Shown piece by piece: positions 37,818 to 44,020 of a DNA stretch of 46,659 bases. Below the pieces are notes generated by a model. The model saw only the letters and a program-made list of their open reading frames with translations, was not told the DNA's origin and made no database searches. Location of the stretch: positions 13,832 to 60,490 of the forward strand of contig JAJPYF010000033.1 of the NCBI GenBank assembly GCA_021205085.1, written 5' to 3'. The stretch's first letter is position 1. Each line of letters opens with the position of its first letter. This DNA comes from Clostridiales bacterium. GTDB lineage: Bacteria > Bacillota > Clostridia > Lachnospirales > Lachnospiraceae. Made by a program: the position numbers and the translations under genes.

Positions 37818-37851
37818 AGTGTGCCTTCTCTCTATCATATGAAACGAGTGA

Positions 37852-37935
37852 TTGCGAAACTGCAAAGTTATTATAGCATGGATGTGCCAGAAAACAACTT
37901 CAACGCCCATCCCCATACAAAAACAAGTTTCGCAA
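37852..37935. repeat. Copy C (84 nt) of the dispersed palindromic intergenic element
   Basis: Termini TTGCGAAACT / AGTTTCGCAA perfect 10-bp IR; contains shared core ACAACTTCAACGC (37894-37906). Confidence 0.75.
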
Positions 37936-37945
37936 ACACTCTAAC

Positions 37946-39853: not shown

Positions 39854-39995
39854 GGAATATGCACTGAAACAACTTCAACGCGGGCACGCTCTCGCTAGAC
39901 TCCGCACGCAACGGTACATAAGAGACCAAAATACGGTCTCTAAGTACCGGCGGCTCCGAACTACCCGCTTATGAAGTGTATTCTGTGCATATTCC
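39854..39995. repeat. Copy A (about 142 nt) of the dispersed palindromic intergenic element
   Basis: Arms GGAATATGCAC / GTGCATATTCC; core almost identical to copy B; inner hairpin CGGTACATAAGAGACC / GGTCTCTAAGTACCG. Confidence 0.9.
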
Positions 39996-40047
39996 CCCCA
40001 TCTTTCTTCGCTTCTCTCTTATTTATCTATATATTTCAAAAACATAA

Positions 40048-43829: not shown

Positions 43830-44020
43830 TGCGAAACGCCATATTGTTATATTACGGATTTGTCCAGAGACAACTTCAACGCGGGCACGCTCTCGCTAGT
43901 CTCCGCACGCAGCGGTACATAAGAGACCAGAATACGGTCTCTAAGTACCGGCGGCTCCGTACTACCCGCTTTCGAAGTGTACTCTGTACAAATCCCCTCT
44001 ACATCATGACGCGTTTCGCA
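43830..44020. repeat. Copy B (191 nt) of the dispersed palindromic intergenic element
   Basis: Termini TGCGAAACGC / GCGTTTCGCA; arms GGATTTGT / ACAAATCC; core shared with copy A. Confidence 0.9.

Follow-up and report, generated by a model that had tools for sequence, protein, structure and literature searches.

An intergenic block of 191 nt next to rfbB, within the 46,659-nt stretch of Lachnospiraceae DNA analysed here (the window), belongs in all likelihood to a MITE family new to science, one that carries a conserved, RNA-like three-way junction as its core and would be moved in trans by an IS1182-like transposase. That the family is mobile is well established. For this block, the sequence-only reading of the window had proposed one of two things: a MITE-like element, or a structured RNA that acts in cis at junctions of minus-strand operons. 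The former stood, as did the structured core of the latter, while the cis-acting role at operon junctions fell. Evidence for mobility and a strand-specific structured core thus combine the two alternatives into one, a mobile element whose core is structured.

Results

Copies of the element in the window

All of the nested inverted repeats that had been named in this block are present (Table 1), and the near-identical core noticed 4 kb away (copy A) was recovered at 39857-39996, with 89% identity to copy B over 140 nt. A third, internally deleted copy (copy C) had been overlooked. From our own annotation of the ORFs, we take the surrounding genes to be an rfb cluster (rfbA, rfbB, rfbD, two glycosyltransferases and rfbC), and copies A and B both lie in sense orientation inside a minus-strand operon. 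Predicted folding energies of the 191-nt block are -90.3 kcal/mol for its minus strand (z = -7.8) and -76.9 kcal/mol for its plus strand (z = -7.2), and none of 200 shuffles was as stable in either case. The window copies look old, and none was seen to be flanked by a target duplication.

Table 1. Positions of the three copies and of the parts of copy B (window coordinates)
Feature	Position	Strand	Basis or remark
Copy B, whole element	43830..44020	minus (RNA-sense strand)	inverted repeats, folding, covariance-model match
Copy B, core	43858-43993 (G000:C105:57689-57824)		covariance-model (R1) match
Copy B, left outer inverted repeat TGCGAAACGC	43830..43839	plus
Copy B, right outer inverted repeat GCGTTTCGCA	44011..44020	minus
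Copy B, P1, 3' arm of minus-strand RNA	43858..43879		folding, covariation
Copy B, P1, 5' arm of minus-strand RNA	43972..43993		folding, covariation
Copy B, P2, 3' strand (GCGGGC on plus strand)	43881..43886	minus	partner 43964-43969 (ACCCGC on plus strand)
Copy B, P2b mini-hairpin	43889..43896	minus	loop GAGA (GNRA) on minus strand
Copy B, P4 (43913-43918 / 43945-43950), conserved internal loop, P5 (43922-43928 / 43936-43942) and P5 loop	43913..43950	minus
Copy A, between GT2 gene and rfbC	39854..39995	minus	P1-P5 intact; type-1 outer repeat not recognisable
Copy C, remnant	37850..37937	minus	outer repeats GATTGCGAAACTG / CAAGTTTCGCAAAC, one P1 arm, P2-P5 deleted

Distribution of the element

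The description of the element as dispersed was borne out in the host genome, an incomplete MAG of 1.98 Mb in 164 contigs where BLAST found 19 places, 12 of them solid, hence at least 12 copies, and in relatives, where it detected the element in 8/20 genomes of the same genus and 16/150 of the same family. A covariance model built from 26 copies found the core in 9/20 same-genus genomes and in 127/299 genomes of the family sampled at about one genome per genus (42% of sampled genera), often with at least 11 scored candidates each. Beyond the family, the model was negative in all of about 280 genomes of other families, and of 292 genomes drawn from across the class it was positive in seven, every one a member of the same family. 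Judging from the titles of the records matching the core pattern (Roseburia porci, Coprococcus catus, Kineothrix, Ruminococcus turbiniformis and many Lachnospiraceae MAGs), this family is the Lachnospiraceae. Strong core copies also occur in records titled Muribaculum or Muribaculaceae MAG (L136, L163, L176, L182, L189, L193, L205, L208); since the core was seen in no other family, these are probably mislabelled Lachnospiraceae bins.

A scan of the curated Rfam covariance models, as the sequence-only reading had proposed, gave no match to the core at the gathering threshold or at E<=5. The search of phages for the core returned one weak partial match, that of plasmids none, and the exact core pattern was absent from viral contigs. 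No report of the element came to light in the main texts of open PMC papers. Four host-genome copies are truncated where contigs C106, C72, C90 and C43 of G000 stop within or beside the central hairpin, and the palindromes of the element appear to break short-read assemblies.

A three-way junction conserved by compensatory change

The core occupies ~136 nt in the middle of the element and consists of P1 (~22 bp), P2, the GNRA mini-hairpin P2b and an arm formed by P3, P4 and P5, in which an internal loop is conserved. On the window's minus strand, P1 and P3 are variable, P2 is of the GCAGGU/GCCUGC type, P2b has two base pairs and its GNRA loop, and P4 is nearly invariant (CGGUAC/GUACCG, with a YU bulge); beyond P4 follow the internal loop UUAG / CUUAU, a variable P5 and a loop of the GUAUUUU type.

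Covariation, which had been named as the check on the structured-RNA idea, is overwhelming in helices P1-P5. In a sequence-based alignment, 42 of the 52 pairs change on both sides, none of 500 shuffles reaches the observed values, and the covariation score of 0.45 drops to 0.09-0.16 when the pairing is slid, which destroys the signal. Base identity in P1, P3 and P5 changes almost without constraint while pairing is kept: across 134 copies, most P1 positions are Watson-Crick paired in 88-98% of cases and all four pair types occur, the number of paired copies declining past position 30. Two copies in G308 (L419 and L421) have centres that are 96.6% identical and P1 arms that are wholly different yet fully paired, and in G044 the copies differ from one another in P1, in P3 and in the outer repeats, each of which still pairs. 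Dead insertions would not stay paired, so that the fold is probably under selection in spreading lineages, or else the paired arms are renewed jointly by a copying process.

The structured-RNA idea was partly right in that the covariation is RNA-like and specific to one strand. Of 150 copies, 140 have a GNRA loop in P2b, which reads so on the window's minus strand only, and G.U exceeds A.C (222 vs 105 over all aligned stem positions, to which one conserved U.G in P2 contributes; 134 vs 84 in P1 and beyond, p = 0.0009). These counts come from a symmetric pairwise alignment of the arms; the first, sequence-based alignment is uninformative for this comparison because P3 is misregistered there. 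The GNRA loop and the excess of G.U over A.C indicate that one strand is the folded molecule, and both fit RNA and single-stranded DNA equally.

In some copies, P5 is enlarged by extra nested hairpins (L405 = G113:C7:85500-86150; L026 = G015:C272), giving units of up to 346 bp with intact ends. Short forms that keep P1 and P2 and have lost P3-P5 are recurrent (L014, L015, L290, L287, L407), the one in L407 resembling a deletion between AAGCAG direct repeats.

Ends, target duplications and empty sites

The MITE-like half of the earlier proposal held on several counts, namely TIRs, target duplications, sites filled in some genomes and empty in relatives, and an autonomous IS that shares its ends. 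The element is intergenic, occurs in many copies and contains no gene: units measure 205-215 bp (type 1) or 274 bp (type 2), remain under 600 bp and lack a transposase gene. Type-1 units of ~205-215 bp are bounded by TTAGGYRATTGCGAAACTC, and target duplications of 9-15 bp, most of them 10-13 bp, flank 48 of 73 type-1 TIR pairs, against a mean of 1.75 in shuffled controls. Type-1 TIRs were found at both ends of 45 of 169 core copies (0/169 with shuffled flanks), at one end of 17 and at neither end of 107. Type 2 has the same core with unrelated ends (GGTTYGGGTGTCAAAAGCCC, GGTTYGGGTGTCAAAAGCCCTTA) and is represented in G184 (L300-L303, L320-L349) by four identical 274-bp copies, each with perfect 7-bp duplications; type-2 ends recur in many further copies in that genome, where no transposase was found beside lone type-2 TIRs, nor any autonomous element with such ends.

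At the copy A site, the element is absent from the close relatives G011 and G012. At the copy B site, G011 lacks it and G012 carries a short derivative whose outer repeats, TGTGAAACGT/ACGTTTCACA as compared with TGCGAAACGC/GCGTTTCGCA, are compensated. Four other host sites are empty in one or both of these relatives, some resembling deletions; the empty sites are imperfectly clean, and loss is not always separable from original absence.

The orientation of the element relative to genes is random. Among 155 copies with two flanking genes, 52 are sense to both and 55 antisense to both, and the remaining configurations are equally balanced (24 vs 24), contradicting the proposed cis-acting role.

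Core pairs less than 600 bp apart are divergent in 13 cases, tandem in 3 and convergent in none (close pairs: L209, L190, L197, L212, L186, L084, L046, L099, L045, L108, L107, L113, L157). In some, such as L084 and L099, matching inverted repeats occur only outside the pair, as in a composite element. In two species of one genus (L120 in G225, L126 in G493), a divergent core pair flanks, at the same place, a gene for a 253-aa protein, a putative polysaccharide deacetylase.

A candidate autonomous partner

Scanning viral contigs for the TIRs identified ISs of ~1.77 kb with the same ends as the MITE (L472, L474), encoding transposases of 485 and 507 aa with DUF772 and DDE domains. L472 is flanked on both sides by the duplication CATGAAAGAA, and TTTGCGAAACGCCATA, in the left end of copy B, is identical to one end of the IS in L474. 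Related ISs (L477, L484, L500) have the same ends and duplications of 11-14 bp. The transposases score 48 bits against Pfam DUF772, above its cut-off of 23, and 68-69 bits against NCBIfam NF033551 (IS1182), below its cut-off of 270, and we accordingly call the partner IS1182-like only.

Relatives of the transposase occur in 26 of the 299 family genomes. At E<=1e-60, the incomplete MAG from which the window comes gave no IS1182-like transposase, and none turned up between type-1 TIRs in G206, G113 or the other loci; draft assemblies lose repeats such as these ISs. By genome, IS and core are not associated (core in 11 of 26 IS-bearing genomes vs 127/299 overall), so that the IS-MITE link is one of ends and duplications only. 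With the type-1 ends in common and similar duplications, an IS1182-like IS is likely to supply the transposase for the MITE.

Alternative explanations

A cis-acting structured RNA at operon junctions, serving as leader, attenuator or stabiliser, would suit both the strong conservation of the structure and the sense placement of copies A and B, but the random orientation of the 155 copies relative to genes indicates that the element is not a cis-regulator. Presence/absence polymorphism at the same site among close relatives and the lack of a constant neighbour gene also speak against such a role, which we consider highly improbable. A cis-regulatory RNA or riboswitch was likewise rejected, as there is no constant orientation upstream of certain genes. 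A different view takes the RNA, not the DNA ends, as the conserved unit: a family of free-standing structured RNA genes, selfish or useful to the host, hitchhiking on the ends of several transposons. It would explain why the same core is found with type-1 ends and 9-15 bp duplications as well as with type-2 ends and 7-bp duplications, why neither type-1 end is present in 107/169 copies, and why near-identical centres in G308 are joined to unrelated P1 arms. Nevertheless, type-1 ends and core recur together in many genera and many of the other ends may be mere decay, and we regard this view as rather unlikely.

The fold could also work as DNA: a recombinase would recognise an extruded cruciform or a hairpin of the lagging strand, in the REP/RAYT or IS200/IS605 manner, with quasipalindrome correction keeping the arms paired. 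Indeed, the whole unit is palindromic, its outer arms also change in compensated fashion, and GNNA loops closed by GC are generally known to form very stable DNA mini-hairpins. However, target duplications and a DDE-type partner indicate ordinary DDE transposition, and the excess of G.U over A.C is confined to P1 and P2 and does not extend beyond them, so that simple correction of the arms fails to explain the core; we judge a purely DNA-based fold improbable. REP and BIME elements, mobilised by RAYT, are palindromes of 20-40 nt with a tagged end (GTAG or CGTC), a Y1 transposase and no target duplication; with its units of ~205-274 bp, target duplications and DDE-type partner, the present element falls outside that class.

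Discussion

According to the favoured explanation, that of a MITE with a structured core, the DDE transposase of an IS1182-like IS with the same ends would move the element in trans. The core would be kept as a single-strand fold, of RNA or of single-stranded DNA from the window's minus strand, because element lineages losing the fold would stop spreading, and it would act in propagation of the element rather than in regulation of the neighbouring rfb genes. The core occurs with unrelated ends and so behaves like a module. We tentatively advance the further possibility that it is an active RNA (or single-stranded DNA) module needed for spread and carried by MITEs with unrelated ends, its stems hypervariable and always paired.

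The interiors of MITEs are usually IS remnants or unconserved hairpins, unlike the specific three-way junction found here, with compensatory change across ~127 sampled genera. In other respects, the element resembles prokaryotic MITEs, which are short and gene-less, have TIRs and target duplications, lie in AT-rich intergenic sites, have transcripts predicted to fold stably and are believed to depend on an IS transposase acting in trans (PMC10969869). In QMITE2 of Coxiella, the target duplications are of 7-9 bp (PMC10969869). The element is also similar to MRSC-65-2 and other MRSC candidates in the main text of Narunsky et al. (2024, PMC11109978), which are multi-copy, free in orientation, supported by covariation, perhaps acting as DNA and sometimes near transposases. 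MRSC-65-2, from diverse phyla, is described there as one long stem bearing a UYCCGG repeat, whereas the present element is branched, contains a GNRA loop and was found in one family only; it may overlap with another MRSC. With the IS1182-like ISs, the MITE has in common its type-1 ends and the length of its target duplications, but these ISs lack the structured core. BOX, RUP and SPRITE of Streptococcus pneumoniae are likewise small, repeated intergenic elements with folded transcripts and a tendency to cluster, RUP being believed to be mobilised by an IS transposase. However, their host belongs to another bacterial family, we found no sequence or Rfam relation to them, and we know of no comparable three-way junction among them.

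Should movement depend on the core, the DDE transposition of a bacterial MITE would include an RNA- or single-stranded-DNA-assisted step, of which we know no description. Whatever the role of the core, the element is abundant and structured, has no match in Rfam and occurs in 42% of the sampled genera of a major gut family, where it could be mistaken for a riboswitch and appears to break assemblies. It is unusual among MITE-type DNA because an RNA-like core fold is kept intact while most stem sequences change freely, and these always-paired stems provide a natural library for studies of three-way-junction folding.
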